Shown here piece after piece: positions 5,244-41,063 of a stretch of DNA of 41,063 nucleotides (position 1 is its first letter; each line of letters begins with the position of its first letter). A program made the translations under genes and the position numbers. The notes beneath the pieces are model-generated. The model had not been told where the DNA came from. It did no database searches and worked only from the letters and a program-made list of their open reading frames with translations. Source of the stretch: Levilactobacillus humaensis. GTDB lineage: Bacteria; Bacillota; Bacilli; Lactobacillales; Lactobacillaceae. The stretch is from positions 1 to 41,063 of the forward strand of contig NZ_BROB01000022.1 in assembly GCF_024345185.1 (NCBI RefSeq), read 5' to 3'.

Positions 5244-5312
5244 AGTTTGTCGTGTAAGGTAGACTATAAAACTAAAAACGAGACGTTTGGCGTCATTAAG
5301 GAAGGATTTACC

Positions 5313-6500
5313 ATGACCAAGTACCGGTTACAAACGATTATCTTTGTTCTCACCTCATTCATGTTAGGCTGCAACGAGTTCATTGTCGTTGGGGTGATCT
5401 CAGACATTGCCAAGACCCTGAGTGTTTCGGTAGCCACGGTGGGCTATCTGGTGACGATCTATGCCACGGTATTTGCCGTTAGCACGCCGATCATTACGGT
5501 TCTGACAAACCGATTCAGTCGCTATAAAGTCTTCATGGTACTTATGGCTATCTTTCTGCTGGGAAACACCTTGAGTGGTTTTGCCACGACTTATGGGTTA
5601 CTGATTGCGGCGCGGATGACGACGGCCGTGGTGGCTGGGGCCATTGAGTCCTTTATCATTGCCTTTGCAAACGACATTGCACCACGTGACAAACGGCCGA
5701 TTCTAATCGCCTGGATCTCGGCCGGATTCAGTATTGCTTCCGTCATTGGGGTGCCGATCGGGACAGCAATCAGTACCGCTGACAGCTGGCACACGGCCTT
5801 CCATATCATCTCGGTAATTACCCTGGTAACCTACGCGCTGTTAGCCTGGTTGCTACCACGACACGTCGATCAGAGTACCGGGAGTGTTAAGGAACAGCTG
5901 GTTTTTCTGACCGACAAGCGGGTTTATTTGGCAGTTGGGCTCAACCTGACCATGGCGGCCACGATGTACGCGTACTACACCTATATTCGACCCCTGATTA
6001 CGGAGGGCCTAGGATTCAGTGTTTCCAGTCTGAATTGGCTCCTCTTTATTCTGGGAATTATGAGTATTATCAGTAATCGCTTGTCAGGAACCTTGGCCGA
6101 GCGCGATGGTTTGCGGGTGATTCCCTGGTTTTACATTGCTGACATTGTGTTGTTATTACTCCTGCCGCTGGCGCTGGACCACGCTTTCTTGGGATTTGCC
6201 ATCCTGCTAGCCCTTGCGCTGATTGTGACCATTGCCGGGGCACCGCTTCAGATTCACTTCCTGGATGTGGCGGCGGAAAGCTATCCGCAAGCCATGATGT
6301 TGGCCGCGGCGGTCAATCCCATCTTCTTTAACGTGGGGATCTCGGTCGGGTCGGCCACAGCCTCCGTGCTTTTGAACCATGCCGGACTGAAGAGCCTGAG
6401 TTTTGGGGCAATTGCTTATGCCGTGATTTCATTGATTCTGGTGGTCGTCTTGAACCACGAAATGGCGAAGCGGCGGCAGTTACGATCGTTTAATCATTAA
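5313..6500 (+). CDS. MFS transporter, DHA1/AraJ-type efflux protein (paralogue 1)
   Basis: A 395-residue major facilitator with about 12 hydrophobic segments and a central cytoplasmic loop around residue 195. The N-terminus (FMLGCNEFIVVGVISDIA) and VGYLVTIYATVFAVSTPI are typical of the AraJ/PbuE/CmlA drug-H+ antiporter 1 group, whose members export sugars, purines or drugs. ATG 5313 follows TAAGGAAGG (5297-5305). The next gene is a close paralogue over its full length, so this is a tandem duplication. Substrate unknown. Confidence 0.87.
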   Translation: MTKYRLQTIIFVLTSFMLGCNEFIVVGVISDIAKTLSVSVATVGYLVTIYATVFAVSTPIITVLTNRFSRYKVFMVLMAIFLLGNTLSGFATTYGLLIAARMTTAVVAGAIESFIIAFANDIAPRDKRPILIAWISAGFSIASVIGVPIGTAISTADSWHTAFHIISVITLVTYALLAWLLPRHVDQSTGSVKEQLVFLTDKRVYLAVGLNLTMAATMYAYYTYIRPLITEGLGFSVSSLNWLLFILGIMSIISNRLSGTLAERDGLRVIPWFYIADIVLLLLLPLALDHAFLGFAILLALALIVTIAGAPLQIHFLDVAAESYPQAMMLAAAVNPIFFNVGISVGSATASVLLNHAGLKSLSFGAIAYAVISLILVVVLNHEMAKRRQLRSFNH

Positions 6501-6606: not shown

Positions 6607-7788
6607 GTGAATAAGTATCGTTGGCAGGCCATCGTGTTCGTTTTGGTGGCCTTTATGCTGGGATGTAATGAATTTATTGTGGTCGGTGTGCTCTCCGATA
6701 TTGCCCAAGAGTATCAGGTGCCGGTCGCCACGGTGGGGTATTTGGTAACGATCTTTGCGACGGTTTATGCCGTCAGTACGCCATTTGTGACGATTCTGAC
6801 CAGTCGTTATAGCCGCTACAAGACGCTGATGGTCTTGATGGGGGTATTTTTACTCGGGAATACCTTGAGTGGCTTTGCTATGAATTATCCAGTCCTGCTG
6901 GTGTCACGGATGGTGACGGCTATGGTGGCGGGTGCCATTATCTCCCTCATCATGACCTTTGCGAGCACGATTGCCCCGCGGGAGAAACGGGCAGGGCTCG
7001 TGTCTTGGATTTTCGCTGGATTTAGCATCGCTTCCGTCTTCGGGGTGCCGATCGGGACGGCCATTAGTACCAGTTACAGCTGGCACGACGCCTTCTACCT
7101 GATCTCTGGGATCAGTGCGATTACCTGGGTCTTATTGGGGTGGCTCTTGCCACGCCAGGTAGAACAGGTTCAGGGCAGTATTCGCAATCAACTGGTGTTA
7201 CTAAAGGACCGTCGTATCTACGTGGGGATTGCCCTGGTACTCTTTACGGCGGCGACAATGTACGCGTACTATACCTACATCCGACCACTGCTGACGACGG
7301 CTCTGGGCTTTAGTAATGAGAGTCTAAATTGGCTATTGTTCCTGATTGGGATTATGAGTATTATCAGTAACCGTATTTCGGGGATGCTGGCCGAGCGCAA
7401 TGGATTGCGGATCATGCCACGATTCTACATTGCGGACATTATCTTATTAGCTGTCTTGCCATTTGCTCTGGGTTCAAAAGTCTTGGGACTAGGGATCCTG
7501 CTAGTGATGAGTCTGATTGTCACAGTCATCAATTCCCCAATCCAGATTCATTTCCTTAACATTGCGGAAGAGGAATATCCGCAGTCGACCGTGTTGGCCT
7601 CATCATTGAATTCAATCTTCTTTAACTTTGGAATTTCGCTGGGGTCGGCCACGGCTTCGGGGATGCTGGGAACGGTCGGACTGCGCTATATTAGCTGGGG
7701 AGCGGCTGTCTACGCTGCCATCTCACTGGGATTGGCATTGACCTTAAACCGCGTCATTCGCTGGCACAGACAAACCAGTTCCCTTTAG
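6607..7788 (+). CDS. MFS transporter, DHA1/AraJ-type efflux protein (paralogue 2)
   Basis: A 393-residue, 12-TM major facilitator, collinear with its upstream neighbour and identical over long blocks (for example YLVTIFATVYAVSTP, IMSIISNR and SASGMLG-type positions). It starts with GTG at 6607 after AGAGGAGAAAC. The intergenic segment before it repeats a motif found before paralogue 1 (CGTGTAAG then ACTATA), so the upstream control region seems to have been duplicated with the gene. Substrate unknown. Confidence 0.87.
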   Translation: MNKYRWQAIVFVLVAFMLGCNEFIVVGVLSDIAQEYQVPVATVGYLVTIFATVYAVSTPFVTILTSRYSRYKTLMVLMGVFLLGNTLSGFAMNYPVLLVSRMVTAMVAGAIISLIMTFASTIAPREKRAGLVSWIFAGFSIASVFGVPIGTAISTSYSWHDAFYLISGISAITWVLLGWLLPRQVEQVQGSIRNQLVLLKDRRIYVGIALVLFTAATMYAYYTYIRPLLTTALGFSNESLNWLLFLIGIMSIISNRISGMLAERNGLRIMPRFYIADIILLAVLPFALGSKVLGLGILLVMSLIVTVINSPIQIHFLNIAEEEYPQSTVLASSLNSIFFNFGISLGSATASGMLGTVGLRYISWGAAVYAAISLGLALTLNRVIRWHRQTSSL

Positions 7789-8755: not shown

Positions 8756-9045
8756 TGCAACCGAAATCAATCATCAGTTAATTCCCTAAACCTCGCATTG
8801 ATCGGGCTAGATCACTAGTGGTGACAGCGACGCAGAGAAGTCAATCACGATAGCCGCTAAAAGTGGGGTTGAGTGTTCATAAAATGAAACGTCAAATGGA
8901 TGAGCACTCAGGACTCGCCCTTTTACAGAAGTCGTTATAGTGGGGGCTGAAGCGGAATAGAAGAGTAGTTTTTAATTCGGTAAGCTTTGATCCCCATAAT
9001 GGAGCAACCCACTGTGGGGGTGTTGGTGATTGGAGGAGGATGACG
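8756..9045. other. Intergenic region before the adhesin gene
   Basis: No credible ORF. The segment should carry the adhesin promoter, but no convincing -35/-10 pair is seen. CCCCATAATGG and CCCACTGTGGG near 8990-9020 are short self-complementary patches of uncertain meaning. GGAGGAGG at 9032-9039 is the adhesin ribosome binding site. Confidence 0.4.
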
Positions 9046-11265
9046 ATGAAAAGGAAGATTTGGCCCATCATTTTTGGACTAGTGATGGCACTGACCGTCT
9101 TCCTTACAGGCGGGTTCATCACCAGTGGCGTGACGGCCCACGCCGCTGAGTTAATGGTATCAGGTCTCACCGGAAACGATCCGACCCTTACCGATCTGCA
9201 AGGGAGCAAGGTTCCTTTAGGGAGCGAGTTAAGTAAGTGGAACAGTTATGAAGTTAATTACACTTGGGGGATTCCCGATGGGGAAGCCATCCAAGCAGGC
9301 GACACGGTATCAGTGACGTTACCACCTAGCGCGGTGGCGAGCCAAGATATCTCGGTTAGTTTGAAGGATGATTCTGGACGAGTCGTCGGCACTTTTACGA
9401 TTAAAGCTGGTGAAAGTACCGGTACTATCACGTTTAACGATGTCTTAGGTCAGTCCGCTACTAACCGTGGTGGTCACCTGCAGTTCTATGTGACTGGGAC
9501 TAATGAGAATGAAAACCTAGGCCATGATTGGGGAGTTAACAAGGTTGGCTGGATTGCCGATCGAAATGCAGATGGGTCACCCTCAAAGCTGACCTGGAAC
9601 ATCGCGTTTAACCCCAATGGCATGGCAATGGGAACCGCGGTTATCACGGATACGTTAGGTCCTAACCAAACTTATATTCCCGGCAGTGTCTATGCCGAGA
9701 CTGGTAAGTATGGTGAAGATGGCGGGTTCGTTGCCGATGGGACCGTTACCCCTGAGGTTGAGGGCAAAGGGAACACCCTGATCTTTACGTTCCCAGACGT
9801 TACCAAAGCCGTTAATATGACGTATCAAACGACGCCTAATGATGTGAGTGAAAGTGAGATTTGGACGAATACCGCTTCACTGAATGGTCAATATGTGACG
9901 GCCCAAATTACTTGGGGCGGCAGTGGTAGTGGCAATGGTTCCGACCATCAGTATGGTGAAGTTCTCTTAACCAAGACCGATAAGACGACTGGTGCTAAGC
10001 TTGCTGGCGCGACCTATACGCTAGAAGATAGCAATGGCAAGGTCTATGGGTCAGGGTTAGTCACCGATGCCGACGGGAACATTTCATTCGCTAGCCTGCC
10101 TGCCGGTGATTACAAGTTCATAGAAACGGCGGCCCCAGAAGGTTACACGTTGGATGCAACGCCAATCACGTTCACCATTGTGAAGGGTGAGACGGCGACG
10201 GTCGACGTTTCCGCTGAGGACACGCCAACACCGGTTGTTCCAGATTCCGGCGAGGTCGTTTTAACCAAGACGGACAAGGATAGTGGTGCTAAATTAGCCG
10301 GGGCAGTCTACACGTTGAAGAAGAGCGATGGCACCGAAGTGGCTTCAGGTTTAACAACCAATGCCGAGGGTGTCTTGACCTACAAGGGGTTGGCCGCTGG
10401 CGACTACGAGTTAGTTGAAACGGCAGCCCCAGCAGGCTACACGTTAAATGAAACACCGATTACCTTTAGCATCGGGAGTGGGTCAACGGCCGCAGTGGAT
10501 GTTTCCGCCGAAGACGTTGCCGATCACGATGATGAAGAGCCGGTTGGCAAGGTCGTTTTGACCAAGACGGACAAGGCGACTGGTAAAAAGTTAGCCGGTG
10601 CTGTTTACAACTTGTTAGACGGCAATGGTGAAGTCATGAAGTCAGACTTGACGACAGATGCCGATGGGATTATTCAGGTCGATGGTCTCGCCGCTGGAAA
10701 CTACCAGTTCGTTGAAACGAAAGCGCCAGCAGGCTACCAGCTTGATAAGACACCGATTGCCTTTACCATTAGCAGTGATGGAATGGCAGCAGTCGCAGTG
10801 ACTGCCGAAGATTCAGCGACTACGCCAGGCGGTGGCGGCGAGGCTCCTGGTGGGACAGTACCACCAGTTACCACGCCACCTACCGGACCAACGACACCGG
10901 AACCAGGGCCAGAACCAACGCCAACGCCAGAACCAAATCCGACGCCAACGCCAAATCCAAACCCAACGCATCCGACGGCACCAAAGCCACCAGTAGCGCC
11001 AACGACGCCAACTCATCCAGGGACTACAACACCAGAACCAGGTAACACGACGGGGTCTGGGAATCAGCATCCGGCCACTGGTGGTGCAGGCAACACGGCA
11101 CCAACGACTGGTCAGACGAGTTCTAGTCATGCTACAAGCACCTACACCGGTCAGACGTTACCACAGACTGGGGAACGTTCAGCAAAGCCATTAATTGTGG
11201 CCGGGTTGGCCTTCCTGTTAGCCTTAACGACTGGCGGCTGGGTTGTTTGGGAACGGCGTTACTAA
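9046..11265 (+). CDS. LPXTG-anchored adhesin with three SpaA/Cna_B repeats
   Basis: A 739-residue surface protein. The signal peptide covers about residues 1-35 and ends near TAHAAE. The N-terminal half (about 36-300) resembles the collagen-binding/SdrG-like adhesin fold, with TNTASLNGQ near its end. Three SpaA prealbumin-like domains follow (about 303-400, 402-500 and 505-600). Each begins with a VLTKTDK-like strand whose Lys can form an isopeptide, and contains the ETAAPxGY/ETKAPAGY motif carrying the partner Glu. A Pro/Thr-rich stalk of about 100 residues leads to LPQTG (705-709), a hydrophobic segment and WERRY. ATG 9046 is preferred to 9040, which abuts the ribosome site. No sortase gene is adjacent. 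Confidence 0.9.
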   Translation: MKRKIWPIIFGLVMALTVFLTGGFITSGVTAHAAELMVSGLTGNDPTLTDLQGSKVPLGSELSKWNSYEVNYTWGIPDGEAIQAGDTVSVTLPPSAVASQDISVSLKDDSGRVVGTFTIKAGESTGTITFNDVLGQSATNRGGHLQFYVTGTNENENLGHDWGVNKVGWIADRNADGSPSKLTWNIAFNPNGMAMGTAVITDTLGPNQTYIPGSVYAETGKYGEDGGFVADGTVTPEVEGKGNTLIFTFPDVTKAVNMTYQTTPNDVSESEIWTNTASLNGQYVTAQITWGGSGSGNGSDHQYGEVLLTKTDKTTGAKLAGATYTLEDSNGKVYGSGLVTDADGNISFASLPAGDYKFIETAAPEGYTLDATPITFTIVKGETATVDVSAEDTPTPVVPDSGEVVLTKTDKDSGAKLAGAVYTLKKSDGTEVASGLTTNAEGVLTYKGLAAGDYELVETAAPAGYTLNETPITFSIGSGSTAAVDVSAEDVADHDDEEPVGKVVLTKTDKATGKKLAGAVYNLLDGNGEVMKSDLTTDADGIIQVDGLAAGNYQFVETKAPAGYQLDKTPIAFTISSDGMAAVAVTAEDSATTPGGGGEAPGGTVPPVTTPPTGPTTPEPGPEPTPTPEPNPTPTPNPNPTHPTAPKPPVAPTTPTHPGTTTPEPGNTTGSGNQHPATGGAGNTAPTTGQTSSSHATSTYTGQTLPQTGERSAKPLIVAGLAFLLALTTGGWVVWERRY

Positions 11266-12115: not shown

Positions 12116-14344
12116 TTATTCATGACGCTTGCGACTCAAGCCAAGACCTAAAGTTGATAAGGCCACGGCAACACCGGCAGCAATGACTGAGACGGCACTT
12201 TGCTTTTCACCGGTTTGTGGTAAAGTCGTTGCGTTTTGGTGGTTAGTCTTGGATGTGGCTAACTTGGTTGCGGTCACCTGAGCGGCCTGACCATGAGTCT
12301 TAACAATTGTGCTGGTCGTGGTCTTGTGGCCAGTGGCTTTGACACCCTTGGCCTTATCACCAGCAGTGATGTTGACAACGTGGTTGCCTTTGTCAGTGGT
12401 TGGTTCAGTAGGGTCAACGATCTGGTCGCCATCCCCGCCAGTTACCACTTGGTCACCGTCGCCGTCAGTAATTGGCGTCGTTGGGGTGACGGGCGTTGTT
12501 GGTTCCGTCGTACCAGGATCCGTGGTTGGATCGGTTGGGTCTGTGGTCCCGGGGTCAGTAGTTGGATCGGTTGGGTCGGTGGTGCCGGGATCAGTGGTTG
12601 GATCGGTTGGGTCTGTCGTGCCGGGATCAGTGGTTGGATCGGTTGGGTCCGTCGTGCCAGGGTCGGTACTTGGATCGGGATCCGGATCAACTGGCGTGAC
12701 ATCATCGACGATTGTGAAGGTGACGTCCGTTTCCGCTTGGTAGTTGTTAGTTGTGACAACGGTGATCGTGTAGGTCCCGGCCGGAATGGGCGTTCCATTG
12801 GCCTTGTAAACGAAGCCTAATGGATTGTCTGGATCCGGATTATTCCAGAAGTATAAAGGCAAGGCGCCTTCTGTGATAGCCTTGTACTTAGCAGTTGGAT
12901 CAATGTTACCGGCGAGGTCTTGGGAACCGAAGAGCAGGCCACTAATTGGATCAAATGTGGACATTGCTGGTAGTTCGGAAAGCTTGTAGGTTCCGCCTTG
13001 GATTGTTTGTTTGGAAGTCCAAGTGTTTAGCAGATGGTCATCATTAAAATTGGTGGTAAAGTGGTTCCCACCGATGAGCAACGTGCTAAGGTTGGTGTAA
13101 CCAGATAAGTCAGGTAACTTGCCACTAAGGTCATTGTCCTCCAGATAAAGCGCTTGTAATTTTGGAAATCCACTAAGATCAGGGAAGGCACCCGAGAGCT
13201 TGTTATCACTGAATTGTAAGTACAAGGCTTCTGGTAAACTGCCGATATCAGTGAGAGCTCCGGTCATAGCATTAAAATCGAAGTTAACGTTAATCAGTTG
13301 GGTGTAGGCCGAAAGATCTGGCACATTACCAGTTAGGTTGTAGTGATTGATGCTAAGATACTTTAATTGGGTATTTTGACCCAGATAAGTCTTCATAAAG
13401 GTACTAGCATCTTGAGCGGGCATCGGTGTGTTTTCTGGAACAGTCAATGCTAGTGTTGTCAGTTTTGGTGCGAAGGAAAAGTCAATCATGTGTTCTGGGG
13501 CGATAGCCTTTTTAGTCAAAGTGAAACCGTCTAAGTTCGTGAGATATTGAATTCCAGTGAAGTCAGTGGGTAGGTCACCAGTATAACCATAATCAGTCAA
13601 TGAAGTGATTTTGGAGAGATAGAGGAATAAGTTACTCGATGTGATGTAAGCACCTTTATTAAAGAACTTAGCGGCATTAATAACCCAAGCCCGCATAGCA
13701 GGATCGGGCATCCATTCGGTGGCATCGACACCCATGATGTCAGGTAAGGTTGCGGCCTTCACTAAAGCGCTCCGAGATAACAGAGACGTTGGTAAAACTG
13801 AAGAGAATGATTGAACCTTTTCAACGGTGTCGTCAGATGATTCTTTGATAGGTGCAGCTTCTTCTTTAACATCGTCTGTTTGAGTGGTTGCGACTTCAGG
13901 TGTTTCTTGAACGTCCTTCTTCACTTCAGAAACATTGTTGTCAGAAACTGGTGCATCTGATTTAGTGGTATCCGAGTCGTCCTTAGTTGCTGGATCGGAT
14001 ACCTTTTTTTCAGTGTTGTCTTTTTCAGTATCGGTCTTAGTTTCAGTATCAGTTTCAGTATCAGTTTCAGTATCTGTTTTAGTATCTGCGTTACTTTCAG
14101 ATGTATCTTCTTTGGTATCACTGGACGCCTTCAAGGTTGCTTGATTAGACTGTTCAGAGCTGGAATCGCTTTCATTTTCGGTTTGTGGCGTTGCGGCGGG
14201 GGTGGTGTCAGCATTAGCAGTGACGCCCATGCCAGTCATCCCTAAGCCTAAGGTTGCAACAGTGATGCAAGCGAAGACCCAGTTCTTGCCTGCCTTGTAA
14301 CTCTTAAAGTGTTCCTTAGTTTCAACGTTAGCTTGCTTCCTCAT
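12116..14344 (-). CDS. LPXTG-anchored leucine-rich-repeat protein with KxYKxGKxW signal peptide
   Basis: 742 residues. The N-terminus carries the KxYKxGKxW-type export signal (KSYKAGKNW) and a hydrophobic stretch ending near TANAD. Residues about 50-190 are Ser/Thr/Asp/Glu-rich and disordered, with TDTE repeats. Residues about 200-480 contain an LRR-like domain with LSGAFPDLSG, LSGKLPDLSG and LTGNVPDLSA units resembling plant-like LRRs. After about residue 520 comes a beta domain (TYTITVVTTNNYQ), then DPTTDPGTT repeats, a His/Lys/Thr-rich linker, LPQTG (708-712) and a membrane anchor. GAGGAGG precedes ATG 14344. Likely a wall-bound adhesion or matrix protein; ligand unknown. Confidence 0.9.
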   Translation of the reverse strand: MRKQANVETKEHFKSYKAGKNWVFACITVATLGLGMTGMGVTANADTTPAATPQTENESDSSSEQSNQATLKASSDTKEDTSESNADTKTDTETDTETDTETKTDTEKDNTEKKVSDPATKDDSDTTKSDAPVSDNNVSEVKKDVQETPEVATTQTDDVKEEAAPIKESSDDTVEKVQSFSSVLPTSLLSRSALVKAATLPDIMGVDATEWMPDPAMRAWVINAAKFFNKGAYITSSNLFLYLSKITSLTDYGYTGDLPTDFTGIQYLTNLDGFTLTKKAIAPEHMIDFSFAPKLTTLALTVPENTPMPAQDASTFMKTYLGQNTQLKYLSINHYNLTGNVPDLSAYTQLINVNFDFNAMTGALTDIGSLPEALYLQFSDNKLSGAFPDLSGFPKLQALYLEDNDLSGKLPDLSGYTNLSTLLIGGNHFTTNFNDDHLLNTWTSKQTIQGGTYKLSELPAMSTFDPISGLLFGSQDLAGNIDPTAKYKAITEGALPLYFWNNPDPDNPLGFVYKANGTPIPAGTYTITVVTTNNYQAETDVTFTIVDDVTPVDPDPDPSTDPGTTDPTDPTTDPGTTDPTDPTTDPGTTDPTDPTTDPGTTDPTDPTTDPGTTEPTTPVTPTTPITDGDGDQVVTGGDGDQIVDPTEPTTDKGNHVVNITAGDKAKGVKATGHKTTTSTIVKTHGQAAQVTATKLATSKTNHQNATTLPQTGEKQSAVSVIAAGVAVALSTLGLGLSRKRHE
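12505..12672 (-). repeat. Tandem 36-bp coding repeats (TDPTDPTTDPGT units)
   Basis: Four to five near-identical 36-bp units inside the LRR protein gene encode a 12-residue Asp/Pro/Thr unit. They form the wall-spanning stalk. In-frame tandem repeats of this sort often vary in number between strains by slippage. Confidence 0.8.
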
Positions 14345-29650: not shown

Positions 29651-31291
29651 ATGAAAAAATGGACCGGAATCGGATTAGTTGCTGCAGTAGTCGCCATGGG
29701 ATTGGGTCTGGCTGCTTGTGGGCAATCGTCATCATCAGCGACGCCCCAGCAAGACTTAAAGTTACCAGCGACGGCACAACTGGATACGATCGATTTGGCT
29801 AAGGCCACGGGTTATGGTCAGACCGGGAACGTTTTTGAAAGTTTCTATCGGTTAGGCAAGGACGGTAAGGTGGCCCCGGGATTGGCGGATTCCGCTAAGA
29901 TGTCCAAGGACAAGAAAACCTGGACGTTCCACATCCGCGACAACGCCAAGTGGAGTAATGGCGATCCTATCACGGCGCAGGACTTCGTTTATTCCTGGCG
30001 ACGGACGTTGACGCCAGCCACCAAGGCTTCCTACACGACGATGTTCTCCGGAATTAAGAACGGGGATAAGATTATCGCTGGTAAGGCCGATCCCAGTGAG
30101 ATTGGGATTCACGCCAAGAACAAGCACACGGTTGTTATCGAATTAGATAAGCCGATTGCCTACTTTAAGATTCTGATGGCATACCCGTTATTTGCCCCAC
30201 AAAATGAAAAGGTCGTCAACAAGTATGGGAAGAAGTATGCCACTAAGTCCGAGTACATGGTGTACAGTGGACCGTTTAAGATTACCAACTGGAGTGGGAC
30301 TGGGAATACCTGGTCATTCGTCAAGAACAACCATTACTGGGACAAGAAGGTTGTGAAGTTAAATAGGATTAGCTACCAGGTGGTTACTAATCCGCAAACG
30401 GGGTTGAGCCTGTACCAGAACAAGAAGCTCGACTTCGCACAGCTCTCGACGGAGCAAGTTAAGAACTATAAGAACAACAAGGAATTCAAGGAGTATCCTT
30501 ACTCCATCGTGATTCACCTGAAGTACAACTTTCAAGATGCTGATAAGGAAAAGCGGCGTATCATGAATAATCAGAACATCCGCCAAGCAATTGCCTTATC
30601 GATCAATCGCAGCCTGTTAACCAAGAAGGTCTTGGGGGATGGTTCTGTGACCCCTACTGGTTTTGTGGCTAGTGGTCTTGCCAAGGATCCGAAGACGGGT
30701 GAAGACTTTGCCAAGCAACAAGCCGTTAAGAATACCACAGCCTACAACCCAACTCTGGCGAAGAAGAAGTGGGCGGCTGGTTTGAAACAGCTGGGACTGA
30801 AGAAGGTCAAGCTGAGTATCATGGCTGGAAATGATGATGTCGCTGCTAGTACCGTTACCCAATATTTGAAGGGAACGTTGGAAAAGAACCTACCTGGTTT
30901 TGACCTCACGATTCAAAACGTTCCGGCTTCAGTCGCCCAATCACGGGCAACGAGTGGTGACTTTGACCTCTTCCTCTCCCACTGGGGAGCCGACTTCAAC
31001 GATCCCATTTCCTTCATGCAGATTCCAACGAGTTCCAACGCTTTGAACTATGGCAAGTGGTCCAACAAGACTTACGATGCCTTGATCGACAAGGCCCAGA
31101 ATCAAGATGCTGGGAACGACGAGGCGCGTTGGCAGGACATGGTTCAGGCCGCTAAGCTCATCAACAAGGAACAGAGCTTTACGCCCCTTTATCAGGCTAA
31201 TTACGCCTACCTCCAACGGTCCACGGTCAAGGGTGTGATTCATAACACTGCCGGGACTCAGTGGAGTTACAAGTACGCTTACGTTAAATAG
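29651..31291 (+). CDS. Oligopeptide ABC transporter substrate-binding lipoprotein (OppA/SBP_bac_5)
   Basis: 546 residues. The lipoprotein signal has lipobox LAAC with lipid-bearing Cys at about 23. The SBP_bac_5 domain covers the rest, with KTWTFHIRDNAKWSNGDPIT and AQDFVYSWRRTL as the family signature and NIRQAIALSINR in the middle. No permease or ATPase gene is adjacent, so it must use Opp subunits encoded elsewhere. The preceding Cys-rich leader and attenuator suggest a role in uptake of cysteine-containing peptides, comparable to Listeria CtaP; that link is inference. ATG 29651 follows AAAGGGAG. Confidence 0.9.
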   Translation: MKKWTGIGLVAAVVAMGLGLAACGQSSSSATPQQDLKLPATAQLDTIDLAKATGYGQTGNVFESFYRLGKDGKVAPGLADSAKMSKDKKTWTFHIRDNAKWSNGDPITAQDFVYSWRRTLTPATKASYTTMFSGIKNGDKIIAGKADPSEIGIHAKNKHTVVIELDKPIAYFKILMAYPLFAPQNEKVVNKYGKKYATKSEYMVYSGPFKITNWSGTGNTWSFVKNNHYWDKKVVKLNRISYQVVTNPQTGLSLYQNKKLDFAQLSTEQVKNYKNNKEFKEYPYSIVIHLKYNFQDADKEKRRIMNNQNIRQAIALSINRSLLTKKVLGDGSVTPTGFVASGLAKDPKTGEDFAKQQAVKNTTAYNPTLAKKKWAAGLKQLGLKKVKLSIMAGNDDVAASTVTQYLKGTLEKNLPGFDLTIQNVPASVAQSRATSGDFDLFLSHWGADFNDPISFMQIPTSSNALNYGKWSNKTYDALIDKAQNQDAGNDEARWQDMVQAAKLINKEQSFTPLYQANYAYLQRSTVKGVIHNTAGTQWSYKYAYVK

Positions 31292-31309: not shown

Positions 31310-31500
31310 TTGGCCGCCTGCGGCTGCCAGGGATTCCGCCTGCTGTGGGGACGCTTCAGCCTAAAAACCAGGCTTCTCGCTCGATTTGAAGCCACGAAGA
31401 CCACATGTCTTCAAAGTCGCCCGTGATGTAAGGCCGAGAAACGCACTCGGTCTAACATCACCACCACGGCCGGCTCCATCCCTGGCCTCCTCCGGCTAGG
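31310..31500 (+). repeat. GC-rich structured repeat, copy 1 (family 2)
   Basis: About 190 bp, repeated at 40629-40818 in the same orientation, here 19 nt after the peptide-binding gene. Paired segments are CCAGGGAT (31327-31334) with ATCCCTGG (31478-31485), GATGTAAGGCCGAG (31425-31438) with CTCGGTCTAACATC (31446-31459, one A-A mismatch), GGCTTC with GAAGCC (31371-31376, 31388-31393), and GAAGAC with GTCTTC (31396-31401, 31407-31412). Stem differences from copy 2 are mostly compensatory, and G-T pairs favour RNA from the + strand. Confidence 0.85.
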
Positions 31501-31745
31501 ATAGTAGGTTGCCACAACTAGGACTGTCGTAAGTTCTACTTGATCATGGGAAACCGGTGACTAGCCGGGTCACTGACAGTTGGTGAAGTTGCTTTCACCA
31601 TGTTTCGATTGGTTTTTAAGGGCGTAACGTAATTAAATTTTTAGATTCGTGAAAGGACGCCGATGCTGTTGGCGTCCTTTTCCACTTTACAGTGACCGGT
31701 GAGTCCCGTTACAATTAAGTGAGATTAAAGGGAGAGGGCAGACTG
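31501..31745. other. Intergenic region before the tag paralogue
   Basis: No gene seen. AAAGGACGCC (31652-31661) and GGCGTCCTTT (31671-31680) with following T form a clear terminator, probably for transcripts coming through the structured repeat. GGGAGAGGG near 31730 is the ribosome site of the next gene. Confidence 0.6.
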
Positions 31746-39223: not shown

Positions 39224-40264
39224 ATGTTTCTTATTGATACCAATCGAAATGGTCAAGCGGTTACGGACGCTGTGGTGAACCAATCTATTGATAATTATTT
39301 GGTCAATGATCTCAAGTTACCGGGACATGGTTTCATGATGTATGTCAATCAACCAGCGGTTATCGTCGGCATCAATCAGAACGTGGCGGCGGAAGTGGAT
39401 TTTCACTACCTCGCCGATCAGAACGTTCAGTTGGTCCGCCGAACCTCTGGCGGGGGTGCCGTCTACCACGATGAACGGAACTTGATCTTCGAACATATCG
39501 TGAATGGCGATCCCAAAGATGGTTCAGTCTTTGGCGACTACGCCATCTTCGCCGATCCTATCTTAAGGGCATTAAAGGCCATGGGCGTGTCAGACCTTGG
39601 TATTCGCCAGAAGAGTAATCTCGTGGTTGGTGAAAAGAAGTTCTCGGGGATGACCATGTTTAAAAGTGGCGAGGGCTACGCTGCCGGGGGGACTATCATG
39701 TATGATCTCAACGTTGATGCGGCGCACCACGTCTTATTGCCGGTGACCAAGCATGCGCATCGTGGGGTGTCTTCCAATCGCGTAGCCATCACGAATCTCC
39801 GCCAATACCTGGCGCCGGCCTATCGTGACCTGACAATCCAAGAATTTAAGACGGCCTTACTGTGTCATATTTTTAAGGTAGATCGCTTAGACCAGATTGA
39901 AACCTATCATCTGACAGATCGAGACTGGTCAGTGATTGATCAGCGGCTCGCGGAGAAATATCGAACTGATGCCTGGAATTATGGGGCCAATCCTGGCTTA
40001 CGGGAGTATCGCCGTTGCCAGTTAGCAAGTGGTGATCTCCATGTGAACTTTACCCGTCACGCGGGTCAGTACCGACGCGTGGCCTTATTTGGGACGGTAG
40101 GGACGCCAACTGAATTGGCAGCGATTGCTGAACAACTGATGGGGCAACCAGCCACGATAGCGGCGGTCACCCCGGTGTTGTCAGCCGCTGCTGAACGTGG
40201 TGTGCTGGCGGCTAGCGATGTCGCTATCGTCGCGTCGGCTTTGACTAAGGAGGATAACGAATGA
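39224..40264 (+). CDS. lplA: Lipoate-protein ligase
   Basis: 346 residues. RRTSGGGAVYHDERNLIFE (72-90) is the lipoyl-AMP-binding loop and GEKKFSGM holds the catalytic Lys (about 139). The C-terminal domain of about 90 residues is the LplA accessory domain. It attaches scavenged lipoate, through lipoyl-AMP, to lipoyl domains such as the GcvH-like protein next door or 2-oxoacid dehydrogenases. ATG 39224 follows AAGGGAG. Its stop overlaps the next gene's start by four bases. Confidence 0.92.
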   Translation: MFLIDTNRNGQAVTDAVVNQSIDNYLVNDLKLPGHGFMMYVNQPAVIVGINQNVAAEVDFHYLADQNVQLVRRTSGGGAVYHDERNLIFEHIVNGDPKDGSVFGDYAIFADPILRALKAMGVSDLGIRQKSNLVVGEKKFSGMTMFKSGEGYAAGGTIMYDLNVDAAHHVLLPVTKHAHRGVSSNRVAITNLRQYLAPAYRDLTIQEFKTALLCHIFKVDRLDQIETYHLTDRDWSVIDQRLAEKYRTDAWNYGANPGLREYRRCQLASGDLHVNFTRHAGQYRRVALFGTVGTPTELAAIAEQLMGQPATIAAVTPVLSAAAERGVLAASDVAIVASALTKEDNE

Positions 40265-40575
40265 AGGGCAAATATGCCGTGAATCAATATATAGGGGTGC
40301 CGGTAGCGGCCAACGCCTCGGGACAATATGAAATTAAGCGGGAACCAGATGGGGATTTCAAACTTCATTCCTGGCGAACCGGGAAACACAGTAAGGGCAA
40401 ATATCAGGGGGTCGGGCAGATTTTCCTGACAGAAAACAACCTCAAGGTGGCCGTGGTGGCGGCTTCCCCTGTGCCATTCAAGGAACGCCACCAGTTTACG
40501 CCAATGCAACGGCTGACGAGTGAATTCGTTGGTCCAGATGTTCTTGAATTGGCCCAGTCGCAGTTACCGAAATAG
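40261..40575 (+). CDS. Small unknown protein translationally coupled to lplA
   Basis: 104 residues, basic, no TM or signal. It begins MKGKYAVNQYIGVPVAANAS and contains KHSKGKYQGVGQIFLTENNL; I do not recognise a family. Its ATG overlaps the lplA TGA (ATGA), with GGAGG (about 40250) inside lplA as ribosome site, so its synthesis is coupled to the ligase. That context suggests a role in lipoate metabolism or lipoylation, which is inference only. Confidence 0.75.
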   Translation: MKGKYAVNQYIGVPVAANASGQYEIKREPDGDFKLHSWRTGKHSKGKYQGVGQIFLTENNLKVAVVAASPVPFKERHQFTPMQRLTSEFVGPDVLELAQSQLPK

Positions 40576-40628: not shown

Positions 40629-40818
40629 TTGGCCGCCTGCGGCTGCCAGAGGTTCCGCCTGCTGTGGGGACGCTTCAGCCTGAAGGGCGGGCTTCTCGCT
40701 CGATTTGAAGCCCCGCCAGAAGCGCGGGTCTTCAAAGTCGCCCGTGCTGTAAACTGGAAAAGGCACCAGTTAACACCACCGCCACGGCCGGCTCCATCTC
40801 TGGCCTCCTCCGGCTAGG
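40629..40818 (+). repeat. GC-rich structured repeat, copy 2 (family 2)
   Basis: Second copy of the 31310-31500 element, same strand, 54 nt after a stop codon. Paired segments are CCAGAGGT (40646-40653) with ATCTCTGG (40796-40803) and TGTAAACTGG (40748-40757) with CCAGTTAACA (40766-40775), keeping the A-A mismatch of copy 1. GGCTTC/GAAGCC (40690-40695, 40707-40712) is extended by GGCG/CGCC with one bulged C. Most stem differences from copy 1 are compensatory, while loop TCGCTCGATTT is unchanged. Confidence 0.85.
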
Positions 40819-40860
40819 GGAGTTGTTAGTGATTATATTGGTGTGCATGACAAAGATATA

Positions 40861-40899
40861 AACGGTTTGTCTGACCCTTACAGGATCAGACAAACCGTT
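40861..40899. terminator. Strong hairpin, probable terminator
   Basis: AACGGTTTGTCTGA (40861-40874) pairs perfectly with TCAGACAAACCGTT (40886-40899). The T tail is poor (CCAGTTTTC), so termination is likely but not certain. Confidence 0.6.
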
Positions 40900-41002
40900 C
40901 CAGTTTTCACAGGTACCTAGGCAACATAACGATTTGGCTAATAAAATTAGAATTAGATCGCAACAAAAAATCCTGACCGAAAGTATGGATCTATGATATT
41001 TG

Positions 41003-41036
41003 GTGTTGATGGTAAATCCATCAACACCATTTTTGT
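41003..41036 (+). terminator. Rho-independent terminator near window end
   Basis: GGTGTTGATGG (41003-41013) pairs with CCATCAACACC (41019-41029), followed by ATTTTTG. No gene is seen between 40819 and the window edge, so it may end read-through from the lplA unit or belong to an element cut by the edge. Confidence 0.75.
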
Positions 41037-41063
41037 ATAATAAAAGGGCACATCACCATTGTG

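Follow-up and report, generated by a model that had tools for sequence, protein, structure and literature searches.

A large, apparently uncatalogued family of ~190-base folding extragenic repeats in Lactobacillaceae

Two groups of described repeats come closest to the element analyzed here. Excerpts from two accounts of REP sequences and REPINs portray these as high-copy extragenic foldbacks with over-represented inverted doublets, lying mostly between convergent or co-directional genes and near the 3′ end of the upstream gene; singles are viewed as doublet remnants, and the populations are persistent (PMC3116915; PMC3733652). The bcr1 and other bcr repeats of the Bacillus cereus group, in an excerpt of the paper that describes them, are chromosomal, interspersed repeats of 150–170 bp with a conserved fold, often located in UTRs and termed MITE-like (PMC3446304). 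Here we describe what is apparently a large and uncatalogued family of folding extragenic repeats, ~190 bases long, in Lactobacillaceae. A search of the open-access PMC literature (subscription papers fall outside this scope) found no paper on it.

The window, meaning the whole 41,063-nt stretch of Levilactobacillus humaensis DNA that was analyzed, contains two copies of the element (Table 1). Two copies with long invariant blocks had been noticed at 31310–31500 and 40629–40818; both are there, with a mean column identity of 87% over 235 columns (flanks included), and the stem swaps quoted in that original prediction are present in the sequence. Copy 1 starts 20 nt 3′ of the stop codon of an SBP_bac_5 (solute-binding protein) gene (29651–31291), and copy 2 starts 55 nt 3′ of the stop codon of a DUF7671 gene (40261–40575), itself preceded by a lipoyl ligase gene (39224–40264). 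The sense orientation downstream of genes reported earlier holds for both. In each copy, the two ends pair mutually and also form direct repeats. Conservation extends ~20 nt beyond the 3′ end of the element (77 copies).

Several other features of the window were recorded. A terminator-like hairpin, GGACGCC...GGCGTCCTTTT, lies at 31650–31684, ~155 nt 3′ of copy 1, and relatives without an intact copy have it too. The stretch from copy 2 to the contig end contains an inverted repeat, AACGGTTTGTCTGA...TCAGACAAACCGTT, at 40870–40909. The repeat affects assembly: the contig ends ~245 nt 3′ of copy 2 (40817–41063), and at the matching place genome G032 carries the second, inverted half of a doublet (L170: 3322–3502, − strand), so the window assembly probably broke at the repeat. 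Elsewhere, two genes (9040–11265 and 12116–14344) encode cell-surface proteins, a SpaA/collagen-binding-type adhesin and an LPXTG-anchored protein with a KxYKxGKxW signal. Two adjacent, visibly similar transporter-like ORFs (5247–6500 and 6607–7788; 417 and 393 aa) are apparently tandem paralogs.

Table 1. Element copies in the window and the parts of copy 1
Feature	Position	Strand	Details
Element copy 1	31312–31498	+	Covariance model R2, 180.4 bits
Element copy 2	40631–40816	+	Covariance model R2, 176.4 bits
P1 closing stem, 5′ strand	31316–31334	+	Contains CCAGGGAT at 31327–31334; covariation, model R2
P1 closing stem, 3′ strand	31478–31496	+	ATCCCTGG at 31478–31485; covariation, model R2
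P2, 5′ strand	31338–31347	+	GCC, GCTGTG; covariation, model R2
P2, 3′ strand	31465–31474	+	CACGGC, GGC; covariation, model R2
P3	31348–31422	+	GGG 31348–31350 pairs with CCC 31420–31422; encloses arms A and B
Arm A	31358–31374	+	Inner stem AGCC/GGCT; outer part paired only in other subfamilies
Arm B	31382–31419	+	CGATTTGAAG...CTTCAAAGTCG; recurrent C-U mismatch (AAGCC/GGTCTT motif)
Arm C	31423–31461	+	GTGATGT...ACATCAC; inner stem GGCCGAG/CTCGGTC
3′ extension, conserved among copies	31499–31518	+	Consensus RGATYG....TT..C....AAC
Left 14-mer	31312–31325	+	GGCCGCCTGCGGCT; near-direct repeat of right 14-mer
Right 14-mer	31484–31497	+	GGCCTCCTCCGGCT

Modelling of the element shows that a single strand would be able to fold into a closing stem (P1/P2), a three-pair stem (P3) bearing arms A and B, and a separate arm C. 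When copy 1 was folded as RNA, its z-score was −5.76, and 0 of 200 dinucleotide-preserving shuffles did equally well; for copy 2 the corresponding values were −2.74 and 3 of 200. Folding copy 1 as DNA gave a z-score of −4.73. For covariation analysis, 314 hits were reduced to 148 full-length copies, of which 118 scored above 60 bits, 115 were unique and 42 remained at 88% identity; removal of 3 with large indels left the 39 Levilactobacillus copies of alignment A2. Stem-breaking copies, which the original prediction had set against its own claim, did not occur among these non-redundant copies: 88.0% of 2500 cells pair under the named structure (66 pairs, six helices). Both-sided changes were seen in 45 of the 66 pairs. 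There were 301 two-sided cells, versus 85.4 ± 8.8 in shuffles and at most 63 in slid-structure controls, and all five covariation measures were matched by 0 of 500 shuffles, although the copies are related, homogenised and exchange segments, such that these counts do not equal independent events. Base pairing is thus conserved while the letters vary, and the compensatory change first proposed from two copies holds in the larger set.

Covariation was strongest in arm C, where 15 of 15 pairs have changed on both sides. Arm A pairs in only 65.1% of A2 cells, since the subfamily of the window copies leaves the outer part of this arm unpaired. Unpaired letters and the recurrent C-U mismatch in the arms are conserved, and internal mismatches and junction letters are kept across genera. 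In other genera whole stems have been exchanged for different letters, with the model matched over its full length. Genomes G121 (L389–L396), G194 (L380–L388) and G169 (L397–L399) each hold a near-identical copy set with the same layout in different letters, the copies in G121 and G169 being shorter. These sets are candidates for recent activity or strong homogenisation.

The repeat was at first taken to have two copies, but there are ~120 non-overlapping copies in 1,096,826 bases (1.10 Mb) of the 2.37-Mb L. humaensis genome. This count comes from a scan with covariance model R2, built from 39 Levilactobacillus copies, which gave 170 matches at E ≤1e-5; 150 were aligned, and 120 were left once overlaps, mostly antisense shadows of the same copies, had been removed. 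A 19-nt invariant block occurs 52 times with at most 2 mismatches (49 exact; 24 forward, 28 reverse), versus 0 occurrences of its reversed control, and a DNA search of the same genome returned 40 matches, the best 40 of 74 candidates. The exact block was found in at least 101 stretches of GTDB contigs, with Levilactobacillus in all among the matches listed. A DNA similarity search likewise suggested restriction to one genus (25 of 98 genomes, 1 of 48 genera). The covariance model search of Lactobacillaceae, proposed as a check on the original prediction, overturned this: copies are present in 49 of 201 genomes and 10 of 40 sampled genera. Within Levilactobacillus the element is found in 34 of 35 genomes. 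Order-wide, 11 of 295 genomes were positive, and all 11 belong to Lactobacillaceae. Two nearly complete genomes were also scanned: of 150 candidates scored, 138 matched in G028 and 121 in G014, and antisense shadows may be included in these counts. At the other extreme, G031 has one weak R2 match and G021 none, while their relatives have scores of copies; sampled genes of G031 are about 87–94% similar to those of L. humaensis (87 and 90%). Both are natural near-total losses.

Carriage by plasmids or phages was rejected, since the element had no match in PLSDB or INPHARED, and the exact 19-mer, the sole query used there, had none among the viral contigs of IMG/VR. That the element matches no RNA family, as originally stated, agrees with the Rfam search: neither the window nor seven loci of other subfamilies had a match at gathering score, and the best hit at E ≤10 was to atpB on the opposite strand (13.3 bits versus a cut-off of 37.4).

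Copies tend to occur as inverted doublets. In L. humaensis, 31 of 32 neighbours at most 600 nt apart are tail-to-tail inverted ('+ −', 3′ ends facing), and 62 of the 120 copies belong to such doublets, whose spacers measure 42–335 nt and lose conservation ~20 nt out. The same arrangement was seen for 27 of 30 neighbours at other Levilactobacillus loci (150 aligned copies of 243 matches), for 8 of 8 at loci of other genera, and for 19 of 21 within 800 nt in G028 (100 copies among the matches listed). Placement among genes was assessed with a simple ORF caller (ORFs ≥110 aa). Elements occupy 33 of 125 convergent gaps, 35 of 631 tandem gaps and 8 of 131 divergent gaps in L. humaensis, so convergent gaps are enriched (26% versus 5.5–6%). 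Seven of the 120 copies overlap an ORF of ≥110 aa by >60 nt, and six of these ORFs are merely 109–128 aa. Doublets lie in 16 convergent, 10 tandem and 3 divergent gaps, with 2 unplaced; convergent genes (16 of 29) therefore explain the inverted mates only partly. Singles comprise 17 convergent, 21 tandem sense, 8 tandem antisense and 7 divergent copies, with 5 unplaced. In all 17 convergent and in 20 of the 21 tandem-sense cases, the single has its nearer gene on the 5′ side, at a median distance of 18–36 nt, compared with 180–363 nt for the 3′ side. Erosion of one half of a doublet would produce just such an asymmetry. Among 30 copies from other genera, 29 were placed (10 convergent, 8 tandem sense, 7 tandem antisense, 4 divergent), and on present evidence, from rough ORF calls, the sense bias is not general across genera. 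A bias relative to replication-fork direction was also considered and rejected: 54 of 100 and 26 of 50 listed copies run with the fork.

Comparisons between genomes show that element sites persist vertically. Where the site could be found, elements of L. humaensis had a same-strand match in 17 of 20 cases in G032 and 11 of 18 in G008 (several of the latter partial); in the reverse direction, 18 of 18 G032 and 9 of 9 G008 elements were matched at the orthologous L. humaensis site. Yet among chosen ortholog pairs (14 for G032, 7 for G008; partial copies excluded), the ortholog ranked as best match in no more than 7 and 3 pairs, respectively, a paralog in the same genome often being closer. Across 58 copies, almost all combinations of variant blocks are seen. 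The copies are homogenised and mosaic, a case of concerted evolution through the exchange of segments. Three sites in G008 retain just the left 14-mer GGCCRCCTGCGGCT between the flanks as a scar, and the remaining losses are internal deletions (some alignments were poor automatic ones, read by eye). Downstream of the lipoyl ligase gene, there are sense matches in G032 and weak ones in G009, G014, G027 and G029, and G031 has a decayed element 3′ of this gene, which indicates that G008 lost its copy there. Copies near the gene in G007, G011, G020 and G026 are on its 5′ side. We saw no insertion into a clean site and found no target duplication; the non-occupied sites displayed, several with unreadable alignments, included no clean empty site. 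Support for a mobile structured element, an alternative named in the original prediction, thus comes from the dispersal of copies, from which mobility is inferred.

Taken as a whole, we read the element, with a probability of roughly 0.5, as a Lactobacillaceae family of non-coding, extragenic foldbacks in high copy number, which behaves as an oversized REP/REPIN-like family and is kept preferentially at gene 3′ ends. A folded single strand (ssDNA, either lagging-strand or excised, or else RNA from read-through) would be recognised by a trans-acting factor that once spread doublets. Singles would be doublets with one half lost or eroded, and recombination between copies would keep the family uniform. 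The sense half may be preferentially kept at gene 3′ ends, being useful or least harmful there; possible benefits are supercoil absorption, blocking of read-through or 3′-end protection. We hold more tentatively to a larger claim, that cloverleaf-like foldback doublets at transcription ends and a dedicated trans-acting factor, which spreads and polices the foldback, form a two-part system throughout Lactobacillaceae. If this were true, G031, G021 and similar lineages would be natural losses of that factor.

The element might instead be a functional structured RNA, either acting in cis at 3′ ends (to stabilise mRNA, provide a processing site or assist a terminator) or giving rise to sense small RNAs. 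Copies often stand in sense orientation right after stop codons: 57 of the 62 hits of ≥60 bits were placed, 35 convergent and 13 tandem-sense versus 7 tandem-antisense and 2 divergent, and sense is favoured among tandem singles (21 versus 8). The conserved unpaired letters and the recurrent C-U mismatch of the arms would also suit an RNA. Against it, antisense copies, divergent copies and inverted doublets all occur, and no Rfam family matches. A simple 3′-UTR model is weakened by doublets between tandem (10 of 29) and divergent (3 of 29) genes as well as by the lack of sense bias in other genera (rough ORF calls). Of the 48 sense copies, 21 have a predicted terminator after the element, 13 have one between stop codon and element, 1 has both and 13 have none that was found, by an insensitive scan that misses, for example, the one 3′ of copy 1. 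With at least 14 of 48 sense copies behind the predicted terminator of the upstream gene, and about half of copies in inverted doublets, the independent RNA once proposed was not borne out. In a functional RNA, one would expect G-U pairs to be much better tolerated than A-C. Within the window's two copies, G-T pairs do appear only when the element is read as + strand RNA, as originally argued, and in A2 two pairs are frequently G-U on this strand (21 of 38 cells for pair 33–174 and 10 cells for pair 132–157). Across the family, however, the strand argument fails, because there is no G-U excess over A-C: A2 interior pairs comprise 1092 Watson–Crick, 41 G-U and 41 A-C cells (20 G-U versus 41 A-C without pair 33–174), and the well-formed pairs of the 42-copy alignment comprise 1986, 31 and 36, respectively. 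This equality points to a DNA-level constraint or palindrome correction more than to RNA, and we consider a functional RNA somewhat doubtful.

A neutral fossil would account for other aspects of the data. Here, the stems of an old mobile repeat would be kept complementary by hairpin template switching and gene conversion, not by selection, consistent with the concerted evolution and mosaic blocks, the decay and scars, the near-total loss in G031 and G021, and the near absence of G-U/A-C intermediates (94% Watson–Crick in well-formed pairs). But template switching should also repair the recurrent mismatches, which, like the junction letters, are conserved across genera. Placement at 3′ ends is non-random, and at orthologous G032 sites the median identity of the element (0.936) exceeds that of the upstream (0.856) and downstream (0.749) flanks, though conversion can produce this. 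We rate neutrality as unlikely. Far less probable still is a conventional insertion sequence or MITE of which the element would be a pair of ends: its many copies and inverted doublets would fit, but no target duplications or clean empty sites were seen among the sites displayed, the ends of each copy pair mutually and form direct repeats, spacer conservation stops ~20 nt out, and our searches of plasmids, phages and viral contigs gave no match.

Scores of copies of one intricate fold thus sit at gene ends in many lactic acid bacteria, and the fold is missing from the libraries searched. The family would be a tractable model for the persistence, homogenisation and loss of bacterial repeat populations, and it opens to experiment the question of whether repeats of this kind work at the level of DNA (topology, recombination) or of RNA (3′ ends). 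As near-total loss has occurred in two genomes of the genus, the missing factor could be approached by comparative genomics.

Among known systems, Weinberg-type candidate structured RNAs in Rfam share with the element a conserved multi-stem fold with covariation, but no family attains its gathering score for the window or the seven loci of other subfamilies. The bcr repeats, compared by description, are likewise interspersed Firmicute repeats with a conserved fold; unlike them, the present family spans several genera, forms inverted doublets and has a multi-arm fold. Differences from REP/REPIN are several. Their hairpin is 20–40 bp, whereas this repeat measures ~190 nt and forms several helices; a GTAG or CGTC tag is not evident at its ends as aligned; and it is confined to Lactobacillaceae in the samples searched, homogenised and site-stable. 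Unlike in P. fluorescens REPINs, doublets here are no better conserved than singles, many partners scoring 50–110 bits. A link to the Y1 transposase (RAYT) was rejected, since Y1_Tnp genes and copies do not co-occur among 35 genus genomes: Y1_Tnp is present in 23, including copy-poor G031, and absent from 12, among them copy-rich G002, G011, G016, G030 and G032. As the Y1 RAYT is the mechanistic hallmark of REPINs, we regard the repeat as REPIN-like and do not file it as a REPIN. What it shares with REP/REPIN is a high-copy, extragenic, palindromic character, over-representation of inverted doublets, a preference for gene 3′ ends and convergent gaps, and a persistent population.
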